Below are positions 2,771-58,625 of a stretch of 64,000 nt of DNA, piece by piece (within the stretch, counting starts at the first letter, position 1; each line of letters starts with the position of its first letter). The notes beneath the pieces are model-generated. The model saw only the letters and a program-made list of their open reading frames with translations, had not been told where the DNA came from and ran no database searches. The stretch spans positions 16,084,491-16,148,490 of the forward strand of contig OY720345.1 in assembly GCA_963082975.1 (NCBI GenBank), given 5' to 3'. This stretch comes from Labia minor. Lineage: Eukaryota; Arthropoda; Insecta; Dermaptera; Spongiphoridae. The translations under genes and the position numbers were made by a program.

Positions 2771-3359
2771 AGCTGGAGTCTCCACTCGACTATCTCGCAA
2801 TTTGAATTGGATTAAATAACATAATATATTATATTTAAATTAAATTTAATTAATTATAAATTATAAATAATAAATATTAAACCAGCGCATGTTTGGCTTT
2901 TTATTGATGGCACCATGGCACGTATTGGCGCGTGAGATTTGCAGTGTTAAAAAATTAATTCTGGTACTTTCAGGGATTCAATCAAGCTGAAATTCTATAT
3001 ATAGCAGTTTTATACAATTATTAATCATGTGAAAAATTATCAAACATATATCTTTATTTTTACGGTCATTTTAGAGGAAAAAAAATCAAAACGTTGTAGG
3101 TAATGACCCTCTTCCGGTTGACCTACATTTCTCAAAAGTTGATAGAAAACTATGAATTTTGAATAATGTCCATGTACCAAATTTCATCATTCTAGCTCAA
3201 ACAGTTTTTGCGTAATCTTGTCTACATACACACACACACACACAGACATTTTTCTCAACCTTAGTGAAAATGATTCAGGAACCTTCAAAACGTATAAAAA
3301 CAACAAAATCTCAACATCGAAAATTTTCGTGCTCGCAATACTATCTCCGGCGAGATAGT
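2771..3359 (-). mobile_element. HINE-A copy 2 (second of a tandem pair)
   Basis: Same family and orientation as the copy ending six bases before it. Full length, with the 5' repeat intact (CTATCTCCGGCGAGATAGT on the plus strand, 3341-3359) and a short CA run. The head-to-tail pair is a typical Helitron-group arrangement. Confidence 0.8.
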
Positions 3360-4757: not shown

Positions 4758-5225
4758 AGCTGGAGTGTCTCCACTCGACTATCTCGCAATTTGAATTGGA
4801 TTAAATAACATAATATATTATATTTAAATTAAATTTAATTAATTATAAATTATAAATAATAAATATTAAACCAGCGCATGTTTGGCTTTTTGTTGATGGC
4901 ACCACGTTACGTGTTGGCGCGTGAGATTTGCAGTGTTAAAAAATTAATTCTGGTAATTTTAGCGAATCAATCAAGCTGAAATTCTATATATAGCAGTTTT
5001 ATACAATTATTAATCATGTGAAAAATTATCCAACATATATCTTTATTTTTACGGTCACTTTAGAGGAAAAAAAATCAAAACGTTGTAGGTAATGACCCTC
5101 TTCCGGTTGACCTATATTTCTCAAAAGTTGATAGAAAACTATGAATTTTGAATAATGTCCATGTACCAAATTTCATCATTCTAGCTCAAACCGTTTTTGC
5201 GTAATCTTGCCTACATACATACACA

Positions 5226-5269
<44 letters not shown>

Positions 5270-5384
5270 GACATTTTTCTCAACCTTAGTGAAAATGATT
5301 CAGGAACCTTCAAAACGTATAAAAACATCAAAATCTCAACATCGAAAATTTTCGTGATCGCAATACTATCTCTGGCGAGATAGT
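4758..5384 (-). mobile_element. HINE-A copy 3 (full length)
   Basis: One of the best-preserved copies: 3' hairpin end at 4758-4790, 5' repeat TCTCTGGCGAGATAGT at 5369-5384, and an expanded CA microsatellite at 5217-5270 exactly where the family carries its internal simple repeat. Confidence 0.85.
5217..5270. repeat. CA microsatellite inside HINE-A
   Basis: (CA)n with single TA interruptions. It sits at the family's internal simple-repeat position, so it grew inside the element. The open frame through it on the minus strand is an artefact. Confidence 0.9.
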
Positions 5385-5448: not shown

Positions 5449-6606
5449 TTAGAGTTGCGTTTTGGACCAAACGCCCACTTCGTAAAGCCGGTTTTATAAT
5501 TCGCCCATCTATGAATTTTAACAGATAAAAATTGCATGATAATCCCTAATATAAGGTAGGTACACTTGGTGATTGTTAAAGCCTCTCCCTGATTTAGATT
5601 TATTTATTTTAATATCAATTTATTTTTATATAATTTTTATAAGTTTTTTCTTTTATATATATTTTTTGGTATATTTATATACAAACACATGGTCAGATTG
5701 TTTTTTAGCTAAGTTAACTATGCAAAAGGGTCACATGATCCCTTATAGCCAATCACCTTGCTGCTTTTAGTTGATGTTGGCTGAGGGCTGCTTCCCTTGG
5801 ATTTTGAAGAATTGATGACTTCCACTTGCTATTTGGACTTGATATTGTTTACATGCTTTTGGCTTTTTAGCTGTGAATTCGCCATTTTTTAGATTTATTG
5901 TTGACCACGTGCTTTGTAAATTGGGTTGAGTTATTATTATTGTTATTTTTTTTGTAAACTTGTTTTGTTTTAGTTGAGCATTTATTCCTTTTTATTTTTA
6001 TATTTAATTTGTAAATTCTAAGGATTATCTCCTTTAATTTTTTTATATCAAAATTTCATTTTTTATTTTTACTTTATATTAATTTTCTTTTCATTAAATA
6101 TTATAACGTGGCAACGAACCTTTTTCTTTTATTTGTAAAAAAGTGAATCTAATTTTTCCTTTGAAGATCCATATGTTAGCATCGGATATTTTGATTAATT
6201 TGATTTGTTATTATTTCTTTCCGATCTTGGTTCTCCTAGGCGAATCGCCTAAGCACTAATAGTCAAACGTACTACACTCTTTGGTGTAATTTATTACAGG
6301 GTTAATTTCCCAATTAATTTAATTTACAACCCGTGTGAAAGAGTTGAGAATTCTTTTTTTAACTCCTTCACTAGTGGCACAGGTGATCCGACAGGCTCAA
6401 CAATATTTTATTTTGTTTCGGCTTGTCCAGTGATACTACTTATAGCCATATTGAAAAATCGAGTTTCAGAATCTGATCGCAAAATCATCTTACCTTTTTT
6501 TTAGAGTTTAAATTGATTTCGCCCCCAAAAGCGTTTAGTCAAATAATCGACCCTTTAAGATGTCGATCCCCCCCCCGGGCGATATCGTCCAGGTTGAGAA
6601 TCACTA
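5449..6606. mobile_element. hAT-type element, old, internally unrecognised
   Basis: The left end (TTTTGGACCAAACGCCCACT, CGTAAAGCCGG) and right end (GATCCCCCCCCGGGCGATAT, GGTTGAGAATCACT) match, inverted, the two ends of the short hAT MITE at 41433-41749. This is a longer relative about 1.15 kb long. The interior holds no recognisable transposase. The terminal CAGTG is eroded on the left and the 8-bp target duplication cannot be fixed. Confidence 0.6.
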
Positions 6607-7645
6607 AATTATAAGGTTTCATCTTATAATAAAAGAAAAATCAATTTATGTAATCATTTAATACTAACCAAAATAATATATTTTATTGTATTTTGATTCA
6701 TATATAATTTTGATTATTATATTATTATTATTATTATTTTTATGAATATAACAATATAAATTTGTTTTTTCCTTCTTCATTCATTCGTAATAATTATAAT
6801 ATTAAATCATTTTAAATAAATATTTATTCTTTTCATCAATATTATATTCTACAGGTGGCAGAGTGAAACGACAAAATAAATTTTATGAAAAACAGTAAAA
6901 TAATAATAATAATAATAATAATAAAAGATGATAATAACTTTTCGTTCATATATGATTTTGACAGATAACATGTTAAGAGTGACATCCACCCTCATGCGTT
7001 TTTTGGATAGGTTATATAAACGAAATTCAATAACCATAGATTTCGGGTCTGTGGAACAGGTTGATTGGACGTGGAGGAAGGAGGACGACCACCTGCTAGG
7101 ATATAAGAACATAATCATAAACATCAAGAGAAAAAGAAACAGAGAGAGTCATTTCCTAAAATTCACCCAACCTAACAAACTACTTGTTCTTTTGTAGAAT
7201 CGAATTAATTAAACACTTAGTTAAAAAAATTTTATTGCTATATATGATAAATATTTATTTATATTATTTTCAAAAATAAGTCATTAAATATTCCTTTTTG
7301 GTTATGTTTTAATAGAATCATCATTTATAAAATGAAATCATTAGATATTCATTCCATCAAATACATATTTATAATAATTTATATATCTAACAATTTTTAT
7401 TTAAAAAGAATTAATCGTTATACTGACATATTTTACATAATTTATTTCTATCTTGATTATTTATTTACAAGATAAAATGTAAATATTTTTATTTCAATTT
7501 ATATTTTACGGTATTAATTTTTGTTTTTTTTTTAATAAACTCAACATTAACAAAATTGATTATATTTATGGGAGAAGTCAAAATATCTATCAACATATAT
7601 ATCTATATTTATATTAAATTAAATGATATAATTTGCTGGAATAAA
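6607..7645. other. AT-rich stretch with a small mixed-composition block
   Basis: Mostly AT-rich with an (ATT)n run near 6720 and an (AAT)n run near 6900. From about 6930 to 7200 the composition is more balanced and an 89-codon frame is open, but it shows no domain, no splice context and no start context worth trusting. Confidence 0.6.
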
Positions 7646-8153: not shown

Positions 8154-8730
8154 TTACCGACCGACGATAGTAAGGGAGGTATTGTTTTCACACCAAATTT
8201 CACATGTTGAGATTTTTACATATCTCCACGAATCATGCATTTTCTTAACAGAAAAAAGTATTTTTAGCATGATGTCTGTCCGTCCGTCTGTCCGTCCGTA
8301 TAGATGTGTACAGCCTGAACGGCTCAACCGATTTTGATGAAATTTGGTATATTTACTTAATGCATCAGTGGGATGAATTGATCAACTTTTGGTGCAAATC
8401 CGGAAACCGGAAGTAGTAGTATTAGCGATCGACGATAGGAAGGGAAGGGTTATTTTCACACCAAATTTCACATGAGGAGACTTTTTTTAGTTTTTTCTTG
8501 ATTTAAAATTATATGACGTCATCCAGCCATTCATGACGTCACAGCCTGGTCTTGCATATATATTATAAATAAAATAAAATTAAAAATGTTTATATTTATT
8601 ATTTATGTATCCATATCAGTTTTTTATTACATTAATAGATATATTAAAATTATTTGAAATTGTTTCTGTAGGTGTTAATTAATTTACTTCAAACCGTCGG
8701 TCGGTTCGGACCTGGCCACAGGTCAACTTA
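8154..8730 (+). mobile_element. HINE-B copy 1 (full length)
   Basis: Starts TTACCGACCGACGATAGTAA, has a tetranucleotide run (GTCC/GTCT)n at about 8275-8300, shares the core GATGAAATTTGGTATATTTA, and ends CCGTCGGTCGGTTCGGACCT followed by GGCCACAGGTCAACTTA. The end repeats pair (ACCGACCGAC / GTCGGTCGGT) and the 3' end folds as GACCTG-GCCA-CAGGTC. Different terminal sequences from HINE-A, same layout. Confidence 0.8.
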
Positions 8731-9534
8731 TTTCTAAATTATAAGTATAATTTCAAATAATCAATACCTGGTTTATATAACAAGATTTTGTTATATTCCA
8801 TGTTCTTAATTTTAATTCCAACATTTTAATATTATCTAAGTATCATGATTAATAAAAAATAAATAAACAGATTTAAAGAATTGAGGAAGAAAATTTAATA
8901 ATGAATTAATTATACTTGTAGAAAACCGACGAGTTTCGTGGTGGAGTATTAAGAACAATGGCATTAATTTACGAATGAATTGTCTTTTGGTGGTAGCTGT
9001 TGTCGTGAAGATCGAATCATTATATCCAAAGGTAGACAAGATCCACACGTCTGCAAACTCCCACGCATCTCACCTTATAATCAAAGAGATGAGCCAACAA
9101 ACGGATCACGCCGATAACAACATTCCAGATTGATGAGAATTTACAATTTTAAATTCCTTTTTTTTTTTCCAAAACTATAATTTTCACTTTTCTTTTAATA
9201 TGTATCTATTTTAAAATATATTTAAGATACACTGCTAATGTCATTTGTTTCGAAAGTATGTACTTATCGATGGAATTTATTTAAAGGATTCTTTTTGAAA
9301 AAAAAAAAATTCTTAAAATTACAAGTGTTGACTTGTATACTTAAAATATTCCTACAATTTGATTAAAAATATTATTGAAGCTATATTTAAGCAAATAATA
9401 GAAAATTATTAAATCACCAAAATATATACCTAGATGCTCGATTGGTTAATTTTAAAGGAAAATGTCCTGTTATATGACAAAATAATTCAATTCAATATCA
9501 AATTTTAACTCAAAAGTATTTTTTGTTGTTTTTT
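8731..9534. other. Spacer with a mixed-composition block at 8880-9130
   Basis: The block at 8880-9130 contains CpGs and is not AT-simple, unlike the flanks. No supportable open frame or repeat match. Confidence 0.45.
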
Positions 9535-10438: not shown

Positions 10439-10990
10439 TTATAATAATATATTATAATAAAAATAATAAATTGAACATTTATCAAAATAAATAAAATCTA
10501 ATATTTCAAAAGAATCTTTCCATGTTAATTAAAATGATTTAATTAATAATTAAGATCAATAAATAAAATAATTATATTTAAAAATAAATCAATAACCTAA
10601 TTAAAATTTAATAAACATTTAATATCTATTATCATTATTATTTATGAACAATGAACTTCACTAGGTCAATTTTTTTATACTCTTACTTATCATTAAAGTA
10701 CATATGGTATACATATACATGTAATTCATGTAATAAATTAAATGATTCATTATATAATTATTGTTGATACTTACAAGGATCAAAATGCAATGAAACTGGT
10801 GAACATCAAACTAATAAATTATCAATTAAAATATATAAATTGAGAAAGAAAATAAACAATTGATAACAATTTAAAACCAAACCGAAAAATTTAAAATAAT
10901 TATGGTAAACAAGAATATGCATATTATTAGAAAGTTATTTTATAAAATACTTGTTAAATGTATATTAACCTTTTTATTACTTATCAATAA
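10439..10990. other. AT-rich non-coding stretch
   Basis: Nothing supportable beyond AT-rich low-complexity sequence. Confidence 0.7.
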
Positions 10991-11172
10991 TAAGTTGACC
11001 TGTGGCCAGGTCCGAACCGACCGACGGTTTGAAGTAAATTAATTTCCAGTTACAGAAACAATTTCAAATAATTTAAATATATCTATTAATGTAATAAAAA
11101 ACAGATAGGCATACATAAATAATAAATATAAACATTTTTAATTTTATTTTATTTATAATATATATGCAAGAC
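10991..11172 (-). mobile_element. HINE-B 3'-end fragment
   Basis: TAAGTTGACCTGTGGCCAGG and CCGACCGACGGTTTGAAGTA are the complement of the family's 3' end with the hairpin intact. It then runs about 140 bases inward and stops before the shared core. Confidence 0.8.
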
Positions 11173-11488
11173 CAAATTTCATAAATCAATGATATGATTT
11201 TTCTATTAGTATATAATTTAAAAATAAATCTGGAGTGTCTCCACTCGACTATCTCGCAAATTTGAATTGGATTAAATAACATAATATATTATATTTAAAT
11301 TAAATTTAATTAATTATAAATTAAAATTAATAAATAATATTTATTAAACCAGTGCATGTTTGGTTCTTTGTTGATGGAACCACGTCACGTGTTGGCGCGT
11401 GAGATTTGGAGTGTTAAAAAATTAATTCTGGTACTTTCAGCGATTTGATCAAGCTGAAATTCTATATATAGCAGTTTTATACAATTTT

Positions 11489-12593
11489 TACTTTCCCGCA
11501 TACTTCGTATAAGGGAAGTATTGGAATCGTCAAAAATTTCGACTTCGAGATTTCGATAGATCTTGACGTTTTAGACCTCCCTGAGTCGGAAAATACCATT
11601 TTTCGAATTATGTCTGTGTGTGTGTATGTATGTATGTATGTATGTATGTAATGTCTGTAAGCAAATTTACTCAAAAACTAATCAAGCTAGGACTTCGAAA
11701 TTTGGTACACCGATATTATTCACAGTTTGTAGATTTCTATCAAAATTTCGTCAAAATCGGTTAACCGGAAGTGGTACTTTACCTACACTGGTTGCGTTTA
11801 GCTTTCAAGTAAAGTACCAGTTTGCTTCGAGATATTTGCTTCATATTTTGTATATAGATTTAAAAATATGAAAAAAATTGAGATACCAAATTTCATCATG
11901 ATCTGAGTACCGGAAGTGACATTTTACCTATACAAGTAGCGTTTCTTTTTTACCGACCGACGATAGTAAGGGAGGTATTGTTTTCACACCAAATTTCACC
12001 TATGGATATTTTTAGGTACATATCTCCACGAATCATGCATTTTCTTAACAGAAAAAAGTATTTTTAGCATGATGTCTGTCCGTCCGTCCGTCCGTCTGTC
12101 CGTACGTCCGTATAGATGTATACAGCCTGAACGGCTCAACGGATTTTGATGAAATTTGGTATATTTACTTAATATATCAGTAGGATGAATTGATCAACTT
12201 TTAGTGCAAATCCGGAAACCGGAAGTGCTAGAATTGCCGATCGAAGAGAGGAAGTGAAGGGTTATTTTCATATCAAATTTCACGTGAGGACATATCTCCA
12301 CGTGTTATGCACTTTGTATTGGTTTTATCCTCGAGAAAAATCATCTTCATTAGTTTTTTCTTAATTTAAAATTATATGACGTCACCCAGCACTTCATGAC
12401 GTCACAGCCAGCCCTTATATATTATAAATAAAATAAAATTAAAAATATTTATATTATATCCATATCTGTTTTTTTTTTACATTTAAAATATCAGTTAACC
12501 GGAAGTAGCACTTTATTACATTCTAAATATTCATTCACAACTCTTTATACCTATTTATATGCGGGAAAGTCTAGGGGAGGACACTCCCGCTTA
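11489..12593 (+). mobile_element. HINE-C copy 1, carrying a HINE-B segment
   Basis: Starts TACTTTCCCGCATACTTCGT, has a GT/GTAT run at about 11615-11650, the core TTCGAAATTTGGTACACCGA and AACCGGAAGTGGTACTTTAC, and ends TATGCGGGAAAGTCTAGGGG followed by AGGACACTCCCGCTTA. End repeats pair (ACTTTCCCGCATA / TATGCGGGAAAGT) and the end folds GGGAG-GACA-CTCCC. The interior at 11951-12484 is HINE-B-derived. A second copy with the same internal junctions lies at 45299-46497 in inverse orientation. Confidence 0.8.
11951..12484 (+). mobile_element. HINE-B segment captured inside HINE-C
   Basis: Begins with the HINE-B 5' end (TACCGACCGACGATAGTAAG), keeps the GTCC/GTCT run and core, but lacks the family's 3' end; it passes into HINE-C sequence at about AAAATATCAGTTAACCGG. 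The same partial segment with the same boundaries occurs in the other HINE-C copy. Confidence 0.78.
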
Positions 12594-12941
12594 TTTTTAT
12601 TCATGTGAAAAAGTATTAAACATATATCTTTATTTTTACGGTCACTTTAGAAGAAAAAACATCAAAACGTTGTAGATAATGACCCTCTTCCGGTTGAGCG
12701 ACATTTCTCAAAAGTTGATAGAAAACTACGAATTTTGAATAACGCCCGTATAGCAAATTTCATCTCAAACCGTTTTTGCGTAATCTTGGTTACATACATA
12801 CACACATACATACAGACAGACAGACATTTTTCTCAACCTTAGTGAAAATGATTCAGTAACCTTTAAAACGTATAAAAACATCAAAATCTCAACATCGAAA
12901 ATTTTCGTGATCGCAATACTTCTCTGGCGAGATAGTAACAA

Positions 12942-34778: not shown

Positions 34779-34869
34779 ACAGGTCCGAACAGACCGACGG
34801 TTTGAAGTAAATTAATTTCCAGCTACAGAAACAAAATCAAATATTTTTTTTTATTAATGTAATAAAAAA
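34779..34869 (-). mobile_element. Extra HINE-B 3' end, tandem to a full copy
   Basis: ACAGGTCCGAACAGACCGAC and GGTTTGAAGTAAATTAATTT repeat the family's last about 90 bases directly beside the complete copy at 34870. The hairpin in this extra end is partly lost. Confidence 0.82.
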
Positions 34870-35490
34870 TAAGTTGACCTGTGGCCAGGTCCGAACCGAC
34901 CGACGGTTTGAAATAAATTAATTTCCAGCTACAGAAACAATTTCAAATAATTTTAATATATCTATTAATGTAATAAAAAACAGATATGGATATAACATAA
35001 ATATTTTTAATTTTATTTTATTTATAATATATAGCTGAAGTAGCCGGCGTTGCCGGCGTTACCCGAGGCTGTGACGTCATGAAGGGCTGGGTGACGTCAT
35101 ATAATTTTAAATTAAGAAAAACATAATGAAGATGATTTTTCTCGAGGATAAAAGCAATACATTCGTGGTGATATGTAAAAAAATCTCCTTATGTGAAATT
35201 TGGTGCGAAAATAACCCTTCCCTTCTTATCGTCGATCGCTAATACTACCACTTCCGGTTTCCGGATTTGCACCAAAAGTTGATCAATTCATCCCACTGAT
35301 GCATTAAGTAAATATACCAAATTTCATCAAAATCCGTTCAGCCGTTCAGGGTGTACACATCTATACGGACGGACAGACGGACAGACATCATGCTAAAAAT
35401 ACTTTTTCTGTTAAGAAAATGCATGATTCGTGGAGATATGTAAAAATCTCCACATGTGAAATTTGGTGTGAAAACTATCGTCGGTCGGTA
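34870..35490 (-). mobile_element. HINE-B copy 3 (full length)
   Basis: TAAGTTGACCTGTGGCCAGG at the hairpin end and CTATCGTCGGTCGGTAA at the other end are both present, with the tetranucleotide run at 35368-35388. It carries a small variant TAGCCGGCGTTGCCGGCGTT near 35042. Inserted in a hAT MITE. Confidence 0.87.
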
Positions 35491-44000: not shown

Positions 44001-44640
44001 ATAAAAAAAAAAGGTTTGAAGGACTAATGTAGGGTGTAAAATTGGTCGCAACAAGGGTGTAATGGTAGCACTTTGGAAGAGTAAATCCAGCTTCAGGCTG
44101 AAGTTCTTTAGATATTGAGGAGGTTAGATTAATCAAAGAAGACCCCACAACTCGAACAGGTGGATTCTTGCAAACAATATTTCTTGTTAACGATGTTGCC
44201 AGAGCTCATATAAGCGAGGATCCGTGGACGGCTGACTGGTGTTCCAAAAGCAGAATTAATGAATACAATAACACCAGCGAAAGATGAAGTCCAAGAATCA
44301 AGGCAACAATAGATTCAAGTCAATAATGTAGGAAACTGTTAATCTTGTAGCCAGTCCTTATATAAGCGATTATCAGTGGACTGGTGAATCGTGGTCCCTT
44401 TTTCCTCCAATCAAGTTCCTCCTGTCGGGACGCTAGCTACTGCCCGACTGCTTCTCATCCAGTCCATCCGGACGGGACGATTGCTACTCCACGACTCTTC
44501 TCATCCAGTCCATCCGGACGGGACGATTGCTACTCCACGACTCTTCTCATCCAGTCCATCCGGACGGGACGATTGCTACTCCACGACTGACCCTTTGACT
44601 TTCCAACAACCAGTCTCTTCAGGGGAAACGTATTACCATT
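44001..44640 (+). promoter_or_regulatory. Promoter-like repeat unit with two TATA boxes; possible solo LTR
   Basis: Two related segments each carry a TATA box: GCCAGAGCTCATATAAGCGA (about 44198) and GCCAGTCCTTATATAAGCGA (about 44351), both followed by GTGGAC-type sequence. They are followed by three tandem 46-bp units. Duplicate promoters plus tandem repeats of balanced composition resemble an LTR or other element promoter, but neither a partner repeat nor coding sequence is seen, so the class is open. The two overlapping frames in the tandem units are artefacts. Confidence 0.4.
44451..44588. repeat. Three tandem copies of a 46-bp unit
   Basis: Unit begins CTTCTCATCCAGTCCATCCG and ends GCTACTCCACGACT; copies at 44451-44496, 44497-44542 and 44543-44588 are essentially identical. 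Each unit contains CCATCCGGACGG, itself partly palindromic. Confidence 0.95.
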
Positions 44641-54189: not shown

Positions 54190-57100
54190 ATGGTATTTAC
54201 TACCAGAGGAACAGAAAAATTTACAAGAACATGAAGTATTAAAACAGAAACCAACAATAAAAGGCGCAGTTTCAGCTATTAAACGTATTAATGGATATCG
54301 CGTTTTGAAAATCAAGATTGATGAAAATTTGGAAAATACATATTACGATGAAGATGGTAATTTATCATACAAAGGATTGCCATTAGAGGAATTCCCAGGA
54401 ATAAGTAAATTTAACGAAAATTTTTTTGAAAATAATATCTTATTAGAGAAAATAAAACAGTTGAGTTTAAATTAAAGAATACAACATTAAAACTCCATGA
54501 AGTGGAAACCAAATTTATTCTAAAAAAATTTAATAATCGACAGAATGCTAGTGAATTCTAGAGAAATATGAAGGGGAATGTGCCCGATATGAAATTATAA
54601 ATGACACCCACAAGATTGAGGCTTTGAGGTTTTTTTTGGAGGGGACCGCCCTAGATTGTGGTATGAGGCAAATTTAAATAAGATTGGAATTATAAATTGG
54701 ACTGACTGGAAGAATTCTTTTTTGGCAGTATTTGTTAATAAAGGTTGGTCAGTGATTAGGCAAGCATATAACTATAAATATTTAGGCGGCTCATTATTAG
54801 ATTATGCTTTGACTAAAGAGAGATTATGCTTAGAAGCCGAAAACAATATTTCAGTGCAGTCAAGAATTAATATGATCGTTGTAGGACTTTCAATTAAAAT
54901 TCAAAATGAAATTGACCGAGAAGAAGTAACTACTATTGAAAAATTGTTTTATGAAATAAAGAAAAGAGATAATAAATTTTGTAATTTGAAAGAAAATGAA
55001 TTATATAGCAGAAATCTTAGTATGAATACTTACCGATCAAAGAATAAATTTGATGAAAAAAAAACTAGGGCTCACGATATACAAAGAAAACCCTGCTTTA
55101 TGTGTGAAGCCCTTGGATGGTCGAATCGTTATCATTCTACAAATGAATGTAGAAATAAAACTTTATATAAAGAAAAAAAACAAGTGAATTTTAATTTTGC
55201 TGAATGTAATGATGAAGAGGAAGAAGAAACAGAAACAATGAAAATAAATGTGGATAACGATACTTTAAACTTAGGAGCCCGGAAAAATTGAATCCATTGA
55301 TTAGAATCAACGTTCTTGTGGACAATAAAATGAAAATAAAAGCTGTTTATGATAGCGGATCAAATGTGAGCTTAATAAATCAGAACCTAGTAAACCTTCT
55401 AAAATCAAATTTAATGAAACACAAGAATGTATTGAAAACAATAAATGGGTTGAATTTTTGTACTGCCCGGGCCAATATTATTACTTTAAAGATTGGAAAT
55501 TTAAAAAAAAATTTAAAAACGTATGTAGTGAAGAATAATAATTTTTCTTATGACCTGCTATTAGGTCTTGATGCTATTACAAAATTTAATCTGATTCAAA
55601 ATAATGATTTAGAGATATTGCAACGATTAGAAAATAATAAAATAATTAAAATAGATAGAAAAGACGATAAATTAGACGAATATTATCAAGTTAATCTTAA
55701 CAAATTTAAAGAAGCAAATGAACTGAAGATAGATTTAAACCACATAAATGATGATAATAAAAAAGGACAATTAATGCAACTAATTAAGAAATATAAGGAT
55801 GTATTTGCAAAATCGAAATTTGATATTGGTAGAGCTAAATCTAAAGAAGCAGAAATAAAGTTAATTAAGGAAGAATATATTACTTTGCGACCATATAAAT
55901 GCTCAATGCCAGATGAAAAGAAATTAAAACACAGGTAAAACAACTCTTAGAGGCAGATTTAATAGAAGAGTCGGACTCACCCTTCTCATCACCTGTAACA
56001 CTTGCATACAAAAAAGAAGATGGTCGAAGGACAAGATTATGTATCGATTTCAGAAGGTTGAATAGCTTAATTTTACCCGAATGTTATCCGTTTCCGACCA
56101 TAAATGATGTGATAGACAAAGTGTCTAACTGCAAATATTTCACTGTAGTTGATATAAACTCTGCCTTCTGGAATATTCCTTTAAAAGAAAAAGATAGAGA
56201 AAAAACTTCATTCATCACAAATTTTGGAAAGTTCATGTTCAAGGTTCTGCCGTTTGGACTAAAGAATGCCCCAGCAATTTTTCAAAGGACTCTTTCAAAT
56301 GTCATTAGAAGAAATAATCTTGATGAATGCTGTATAAATTACATTGACGATATTTTGCTGTTTTCTAAAACATGGGATGAACATGTTGAACAAGTTAGGA
56401 AACTATTACAAGTCATAGAAAAGGAGGGTTTCAAACTTAAATTGGAAAAATGCTCATTTGCTGCTAATTCAGTAAAGTATCTTGGTCATTTTATTCAAGA
56501 AAATAAAATATCTCCCACACAAGAAAACTTGATTGCGATAAGAAATCTAAAGAGACCAACAGATAAATCAGGAGTAAGAAGCATATTGGGATCGATAAAC
56601 TTTTACTTGAAATATATTGAAAAAAGTTCGGAAAAGCTTGAACCTTTGCACAAACTATTGAAAATAGAGAATTTAAATGGACTGATGACTGTGAGAACAG
56701 CTTCAATTTAATAAAGGAACATTTATGTTCAGCTCCAATTTTAGCAATTTATGATACCAACAAAGAGGTATTCATTGAAACGGACGCAAGTTTAAAGGGC
56801 TTAGGGGCAACTCTAAAACAACCTCAAGTTGATGGAAAGCTATATCCAATAGCCTATTTTTCGAGAAGACTTTCTGAAAAAGAAAAAAAATTAGGCATTA
56901 TCCATTTAGAGTGTAAGGCCATTAAAGATGCCATAAAGTTTTGGCAATATTATTTGGTTGGTCGAGAATTCAATGTGTATTGAGATCACAAACCATTGGA
57001 GAATTTACGTACTAAGTCAAGAACTGATGAAATATTGGGAGATATGGTTCACTACTTGTCCCAATTCAATTTCAAAATAATTTATAAAAGAGGAAAGGAC

Positions 57101-58625
57101 AATTTACTGGCAGACCTCCTCTCAAGACAGCCAATACTAGAATATTTCGAAAACGAAGATGCGATTAAGGTAGTCAATATAGTGGAACTTAACGAAATAA
57201 AGAAGGATCAGAAAGAAAATTTTAAAGAATTGAATTCTACTAAAGATACGGAAAAACGTTATAATATTACATTCAGGAAATTAAGAGGTAGATCAAGGAT
57301 ATTTGTATCGGAGAAATTTGGTTTAAATTTAATAAAAAGGGTACATGAGTACTATGGTCACATTGGTGCAGGTCAAATGAGTGAAAAGATAAGACCAATC
57401 TATTATTTTAAAAATTTTGATCAATTAATATATAAATTTTGTAAAAACTGTACAATTTGCAGAGAAAATAAAGTGCGAAGAGGCAGACAAATAGGTTTTA
57501 TGTCAAAGTTGGGTCCACCAACTGAACCCTATGAGATCATGTACATAGATTCCGTGGGAGGTTTCGGAGGAAACAGATCACCAAAGAAGTTTATGCATAT
57601 TCTGGTTGATCATTTTACTAGATATATGCATGGATATCTACTTCTACAGGTCAATGTGCAAAAGATTTTATAAAAATGATTGAAAAATTAGAAGATAAGG
57701 CTAAAATTAAAATCATTTTAGCTGACCAATATACTGCCCTAAACTCAAAGGATTTCAAAGATTATTTAAAGAATAATCAAATAAAATTAATATTTACCAC
57801 TATTGACTGTCCTCAATCTAATGGACTAAACGAAAGACTGAACCAAACTCTGGTTAACCGAATAAGATGTAAAATTAATAGTAGAGATACCAGAGTTTGG
57901 ACAAAGATTGCAGAGGATTGTGTTATAGAATATAACAAAACTATTCATAGCTCAACAAAGTTTGAACAAGCATATTTGCTATTTGGAAAAAAATCGCCCA
58001 TTGATCCATTCGATAAACTAAACAGAAATTGTCTTATGGAAGATAGGAAGAAGGCTTTCGAAAATTCAATGAAGAGTTTTGAAAAGAATAAAGCAAGAAT
58101 AGACAAGAATCGGAAAACTCATGAATTTAAGATTGGAGATAGAGTGTATATTGAAAACGGAAACAAAATAAATAGGAAGAAAACTGATAAAGTGAGATCT
58201 GGACCTTTTAAAATTACGAAAAGAATTTCAACATCAATTTATGAAGTTGATAGCGGAAAAAGGAAAAAGTGCTCTAATTATATCCACACAAATAAATTGT
58301 CTCCATTTTCTTCCGAAAATTAACTTGTAGGGGGAAGATGTAAATAATATTATTATATTATTTATAATAATTGCTCCAAGAGACCTAGTAAGAGGATTGG
58401 GAACTATTTTATTTATTTATTTATATTAGTGAATTATGAATAATGTTTTTATTAGTTTGTTTGTTTTGTTTTTGTAATTTGAAATAACGTGAAATTTAAT
58501 TATTTTCCAGGTATTTATTTTAATATTTCAATATGTTCATGTTTTTATTTAATTATTTTTGTTAATTTATGTAACCTATTTTAAATATATTTTCCAGAAA
58601 TAATAAAATCGGTTATCAAAATTAC
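54190..58625 (+). mobile_element. Ty3/gypsy LTR retrotransposon fossil, 5'-truncated
   Basis: Order of parts: gag-like region with a Cys/His knuckle variant (about 54.2-55.3 kb), aspartic protease (55.3-55.7), reverse transcriptase with a YIDD-type centre (55.9-56.7), RNase H (56.7-57.1), integrase with HHCC finger and catalytic core (57.2-58.3). The gag-protease-RT-RH-integrase order places it in Ty3/gypsy. A purine tract and a putative 3' LTR follow; no 5' LTR is found. It is a broken, non-functional copy with roughly five breaks plus the lost left end. Long stretches remain readable, so it is probably of moderate rather than great age. It lies in the intron or upstream flank of the first visible GLUT exon, in the opposite orientation. 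Confidence 0.88.
58338..58625 (+). repeat. Putative 3' LTR of the Ty3/gypsy fossil
   Basis: Follows the polypurine tract AGGGGGAAGA, begins TGTAAATAATATT, contains AATAAA near 58601 and could end at AAATTACA, giving TG...CA borders. Because the left LTR is missing, the length cannot be confirmed. Confidence 0.45.

Follow-up and report, generated by a model that had tools for sequence, protein, structure and literature searches.

Positions 11230 to 12936 of the window (the whole 64,000-nucleotide stretch of Labia minor DNA analyzed here, AT-rich with a G+C content of 24 to 31% in 4-kb steps) raise the question of how three related families of short Helentron-like elements, HINE-A, HINE-B and HINE-C, come to have ends that differ between the families and match within each. 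The original prediction had placed all three families in this span, each closed by a hairpin with a 4-base loop. All six end strings were present exactly as written, the hairpins were confirmed in A, B and C, and the families are real. Three separate elements were ruled out, however; the span is a nest in which A contains C in the opposite orientation and C in turn contains the 5' part of B. Comparison with other A copies, among them one without C at 4760..5384 (minus strand), revealed a HINE-A copy at 11230..12936 on the minus strand, with its 5' end at 12936 and its 3' hairpin end at 11230. The 5' subterminal repeat of this copy, ACTATCTCGC, occupies 12927..12936 and is adjoined by a partial inverted copy; the 3' subterminal repeat, GCGAGATAGT, occupies 11248..11257, and the 3' hairpin GAGTG-GAGA-CACTC occupies 11233..11246 (all minus strand).

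This copy is interrupted at a T-rich site by a plus-strand HINE-C at 11490..12594 (right limit approximate). HINE-C begins with the 5' subterminal repeat ACTTTCCCGCATA (11490..11502), an inverted copy of which, GGGAAGT, lies at 11513-11519. A microsatellite in the 5' block (11609..11659) and the conserved core from GAAATTTGGTA to ACCGGAAG (11697..11771, motif starts 67 nt apart) follow, and the element closes with the 3' subterminal repeat TATGCGGGAAAGT (12558..12570) and the hairpin GGGAG-GACA-CTCCC (12575..12588), after which stands GCTTATT (all plus strand). A second HINE-C copy, on the minus strand from 46496 to approximately 45296, is 97.7% identical to this copy over 1033 bp. Within HINE-C lies a B 5' block of about 530 bp (11952..12483, plus strand), which carries the B 5' subterminal repeat at 11952-11961 and is without a B 3' end. 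The nearest B right end lies outside the span, in a separate B 3'-end fragment at 10989..11174 on the minus strand (subterminal repeat at 11025-11016, hairpin at 11012-10997). HINE-B with both ends was read at 8156..8732 (complete, plus strand) and at 35489-34868 (minus strand), and the B hairpin is GACCTG-GCCA-CAGGTC. The HINE-B copy at 34780-35489 has its 3' end in a tandem duplicate (106-bp unit, 1.9 copies). Elsewhere in the window, pieces of a Ty3/gypsy-type retrotransposon with reverse transcriptase and integrase-like frames were read by eye at 54656-58323, and a tandem array (46-bp unit, 3.5 copies, 95% matches) with a G+C content above that of its surroundings was found at 44426-44588.

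Empty sites for C were found at 11 places in the window, where A sequence runs through, at 10 of them across the full 129-base comparison. Five C right ends were sampled, and the nested B block precedes the right end in all four that have enough upstream sequence; HINE-C therefore probably spread after it had acquired the B block.

The matching of ends was analyzed in 264 kb. The 20 sampled stretches came from a random list, many coordinates of which were shifted by hand to spread over two contigs, so that the sample is haphazard and not strictly random. Ends were assigned to families by the parts outside the repeats, and a repeat was recognized if it had at most two mismatches. A recognizable repeat was present at 51 of 65 left ends and at 46 of 50 right ends, in each case the repeat of the end's own family, with none within two mismatches at 14 left and 4 right ends (B counts include the internal duplicate of its left block). 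The subterminal repeat of another family was found at no recognizable end in the 264 kb. Pairing of each end with the nearest one yielded 14 A-A, 12 B-B, 4 B-C and 2 B-A pairs. One A-A pair, at window positions 3359 to 2157, probably consists of two adjacent A copies joined. Among the 12 B-B pairs, seven begin at B's internal duplicate of the left block, and the remaining five, which begin at the true left end, match at 10 of 10 positions. The four B-C pairs represent HINE-C with the nested B block. One is cut off by the start of its stretch, and the C left end lies upstream in the other three; a mixed element with a B left and a C right end results only if the nesting is ignored. The two B-A pairs were judged spurious, one arising from the internal block duplicate of B and the other from a poor repeat match. 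Of 27 matches to A left ends, 13 were backward readings of the same palindrome and were set aside; the other 14 are all preceded by runs of T. Such runs also precede left ends of C (3 of 4) and, with four T or more, of B (16 of 18).

A motif-blind search of the 264 kb for inverted 10-mers that follow TT, lie 250 to 2500 bp apart and have a hairpin behind the right one revealed 8 distinct 10-mers. That of B occurred at 10 places, that of A at 7, that of C at 2 and GAAGTGAAAACTTC at 1; four others (7 places) were judged to be B copies in opposite directions. The palindromic repeat GAAGTGAAAACTTC belongs to a probable fourth HINE-like family, seen in one copy (L026, approximately 6440-6941) with repeats 471 bp apart and the hairpin CAGTC-CCAC-GACTG.

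Local alignment of the 5' cores, with the microsatellite masked and 300 dinucleotide shuffles as the reference, indicated that the cores of the three families are homologous, with z values of 30 (A/C), 10 (B/C) and 8 (A/B); each pair beat its best shuffle. The 3' halves gave z values of 2.2 to 4.5, and none beat the best shuffle in any comparison. In all six sequences measured, a short and a long element from each family, the starts of GAAATTTGGTA and ACCGGAAG are separated by 67 nt. A core shared beside a central microsatellite had been predicted; the core is indeed shared, but the microsatellite belongs to the 5' block and is 111-121 bp away from the left end. Subterminal inverted repeats are present, and the right repeat lies internal to the 3' hairpin, which is a feature of HINEs.

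Searching of the genome (604 Mb, 71 contigs) for the Helitron Rep domain revealed 104 matches. Among them, Rep/helicase Helentrons carrying the ends under study, for which the original prediction had proposed to look, were found with ends on both sides for A and C and with the left end only for B. The A-lineage frame on contig C1 (approximately 47870436 to 47863894, minus strand) is open over 2181 codons. A full A left end lies 5' of the frame (95.6% identity to HINE-A positions 1-517), and an A right end lies about 1.25 kb past it, identical to HINE-A at 37 of 37 nt, these last 37 nt alone being common to both. The intact element, with A ends on both sides, therefore measures about 12.2 kb, and HINE-A looks like a deletion derivative of it. 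A second A-lineage copy (C1:44694181-44699922) consists of pieces 90-97% identical, some with stops, and has the same right end (241 bp at 99.2%). Similarity ceases just behind the hairpin and the flanks differ, which supports the A 3' boundary. The similarity of an A-lineage copy on contig C10 to the intact copy ends after 152 bp, and no A right end was found in 1.5 kb of its 3' flank (L045; best match with 13 mismatches in 28).

Analysis of 1919 residues of the A protein revealed no stop and, in the same frame, matches to PF14214 (E 1.7e-23) and PIF1 PF05970 (E 1.8e-31). The motif VEFQMRGSPHEH is present, with S between G and P (RGSPH), and the protein also matched DUF6570. Its tail gave weak matches to PF14529 (Exo_endo_phos_2; E 2.9e-4, 21.1 bits versus the curated cut-off of 27.4) and to Peptidase_C48 (Ulp1-like; E 3.2e-3, under the curated cut-off); GDFNIN and TQIDIV were read by eye. 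A sequence search of solved structures with the A protein returned SENP8 proteases alone (E 0.015 and 0.031). The leader of the intact A-Helentron (C1:47872892-47870771, L032) contains a B-type left block together with the leader of that block, flanked by repeats of about 308 bp. This B-type 5' end could serve as an alternative left end, and since it lies in the 5' leader of the intact copy, an element with a B left and an A right end is conceivable for that copy. Another A-lineage copy is without the B block; it is itself truncated at the 5' end, so that the absence of the block there says little.

The C-lineage frame (C1:44701595-44705853) is decayed and has 57-60% protein identity to A. The C left end is positioned 0.8 kb before this remnant (HINE-C 1-454 at 94.5%) and the C right end on its far side (75 bp at 96%). 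A 5'-truncated A-Helentron sits inside the decayed C Helentron, with the C right end beyond it. Upstream of the C left end, not between the C ends, mariner-like and hAT-like transposase frames were read by eye (L042). A third lineage (C1:55788154-55798474), present in pieces, is 43-52% identical to the A protein. A B left end lies 2.8 kb upstream of it (B 1-470 at 85%), and no B right end was found in the 2.6 kb of 3' flank that were read (L041, which starts approximately 0.5 kb beyond the last protein match).

Other Rep loci were read for the same ends. An RGSPH-type locus (L031) has no A, B or C ends in 9 kb, and no endonuclease family was reported in its frame. Frames of 383-420 codons at 15 places (e.g., C5:70406415, C1:116454069 and C1:6952164), two of them with one stop in the match, resemble the front part of the Helentron protein of L031, where DUF6570 lies, at 52-53% identity. 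The flanks of a lineage at 66.56 Mb of C2 (L037 and L038) have no such ends and contain retrotransposon-like frames, read by eye. Close to the window, a 34% lineage has no such end in its 3' flank (L039; best B-left match with 9 mismatches in 29), and no A, B or C ends were found in the 5' flank of another lineage (L034). Canonical Helitrons, the longest open frames of which reach 1652 codons, occur at C9:43365333, C1:82181971, C10:14925745 and other places; at seven of these the Rep scores are equal (195.7 bits), which suggests that the elements have perhaps been active recently. In viral contigs, the A 3' end had 0 exact matches, and two matches of the core pattern (L046 and L047) were judged by eye to be chance matches in unrelated DNA.

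With high confidence, we interpret A, B and C as HINEs of the DINE-1 type, non-autonomous elements each of which arose by internal deletion from a Helentron lineage of its own. The Helentron/HINE/DINE-1 layout ascribed to them is supported by the anatomy of the ends and by the Rep/helicase relatives. Judged from sequence, A and C appear to be deletion derivatives of Helentrons that carry the same ends on both sides, the C Helentron being decayed. One Rep/helicase lineage lies between A ends, another between C ends and a third behind a B left end, which supports the view that an end pair would go with one protein lineage, for A and C with both ends and for B with the left end. The Rep of each lineage would nick at a T-rich site and read the left subterminal repeat together with the adjoining inverted copy, whereupon strand displacement would start; displacement would stop at the right subterminal repeat and the hairpin. 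Any short element with the right end pair could in this way be copied in trans by rolling-circle transposition. Because one protein must read both sites, those end changes that persist while the protein lineage diverges would mostly be paired ones, and the outcome would be matched but different ends beside a shared, older 5' core.

The strongest competing explanation is that the matched ends are kept because the left and right repeats pair in single-stranded DNA rather than because one protein reads both. Seven of the 14 A pairs are perfect inverted complements, and the A and C repeats differ at 2 of 10 positions (4 and 7), both of them mirrored on the right, as pairing would have it. Against this, the changes follow the protein lineage, position 10 is T in the left repeat only, with the right repeat unchanged, in 3 of the 14 A pairs, and computed folding indicates that the left repeat is able to pair with its own neighbor. 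We regard maintenance by pairing as improbable. The expectation that both ends change together thus holds for the own-family repeats and the mirrored A/C changes and breaks down in the three A pairs with the left-only change. The related expectation, that the ends must pair or be read by the same protein, agrees with ends that go with a Rep/helicase lineage; direct pairing is possible and unnecessary.

Far less probable still is that the elements are MITEs of a DDE (cut-and-paste) transposon with subterminal inverted repeats. They are short, have inverted end repeats and are very numerous: one pattern of the A repeat, which some right ends also satisfy, has 15,613 exact matches in the genome versus 28 for the reversed control. 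However, Rep/PIF1-helicase genes are bracketed by the A ends as well as by the C ends, the hairpin lies on the outer side of the right repeat, and the insertion of C into A (one clean site) sits in a T run with no clear duplication beyond T. The DDE-like frames read by eye are outside the left end of the C Helentron, and no DDE gene was found between the ends of the elements read, in agreement with the predicted Helentron rather than DDE partner. Derivation from canonical Helitrons (5'-TC, CTRR-3', insertion into AT), proteins of which with the RGLPH motif are present in the genome, is equally remote, since the left ends consist of a T run followed by ACY..., the 3' hairpin is followed mostly by CTTATT or CTAATT and not CTRR, the A protein has RGSPH, and the canonical loci L029 and L030 have no A, B or C ends in 9 kb of each.

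Assignment of A, B and C to Helentron derivatives places them beside known systems. The DINE-1/INE-1 elements of Drosophila, as described in the relevant parts of Yang and Barbash 2008 (PMC2374699), have subterminal repeats, a partial inverted copy beside the left one, a 3' hairpin outside the right one, a GTCY-type microsatellite in the 5' block with a conserved core beside it, and insertion at TT, as do A, B and C. Their subterminal repeats differ across 12 Drosophila species and among the three D. willistoni types (types 1-3), and their hairpin stems differ between species, apparently by compensatory change. In contrast to A, B and C, they have other end sequences and repeats of 13 bp (10-13 bp here); the likeness noted here is one of anatomy. 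The Helentrons and HINEs of mite, Culex and Drosophila, in the sections of Thomas, Vadnagara and Pritham 2014 (PMC4067079) that concern them, likewise include HINEs that are deletion derivatives of a Rep/PIF1-helicase/endonuclease element, and they share RGSPH, families defined by subterminal repeats and a hairpin near the 3' end. Compared with those Helentrons, the A protein has a DUF6570 match, a weak Ulp1-like tail and an endonuclease match below the cut-off. Identical subterminal repeats of 11 bp or more place Helentrons in one family there. The A repeats match over 10 bp in their common form, below this value, and those of B and C over 11 and 13 bp (by eye); the criterion serves to sort families and is not a definition of Helentrons. 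The Hel-2 elements of Lepidoptera, in the account of their structure by Coates 2015 (PMC4344730), resemble A, B and C in the 5' inverted repeat, the subterminal repeats, the 3' hairpin and a (CTGT)n microsatellite that follows the left repeat, and differ in TC/CTAG termini and A/T flanks.

The paired switching of ends had been thought to look new. This claim fails, because DINE-1 types with different end repeats were published in 2008 (PMC2374699) and shared end repeats already serve as a family criterion. The A, B and C Helentrons and HINEs are a fresh example of a known element type and no new phenomenon.

More tentatively, and with more doubt than conviction, the data may be read as three sister Helentron lineages in one genome, each with an exclusive end specificity, in which the left repeat, the inverted copy beside it and the right repeat have changed in concert, and all with an older 5' core of fixed 67-nt spacing; the sampled elements insert into one another without exchange of ends. 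If this is true, the lineages would form a natural swap set for determining which part of Rep, e.g., the N-terminal 21-residue repeats, reads Helentron ends. For Labia minor, the analysis names the probable drivers of one of the genome's commoner repeats, with thousands of copies. The end sequence is tied to a protein lineage, in two lineages with both ends and in a third with one, which provides material for tests of end recognition by Helentron Rep proteins.
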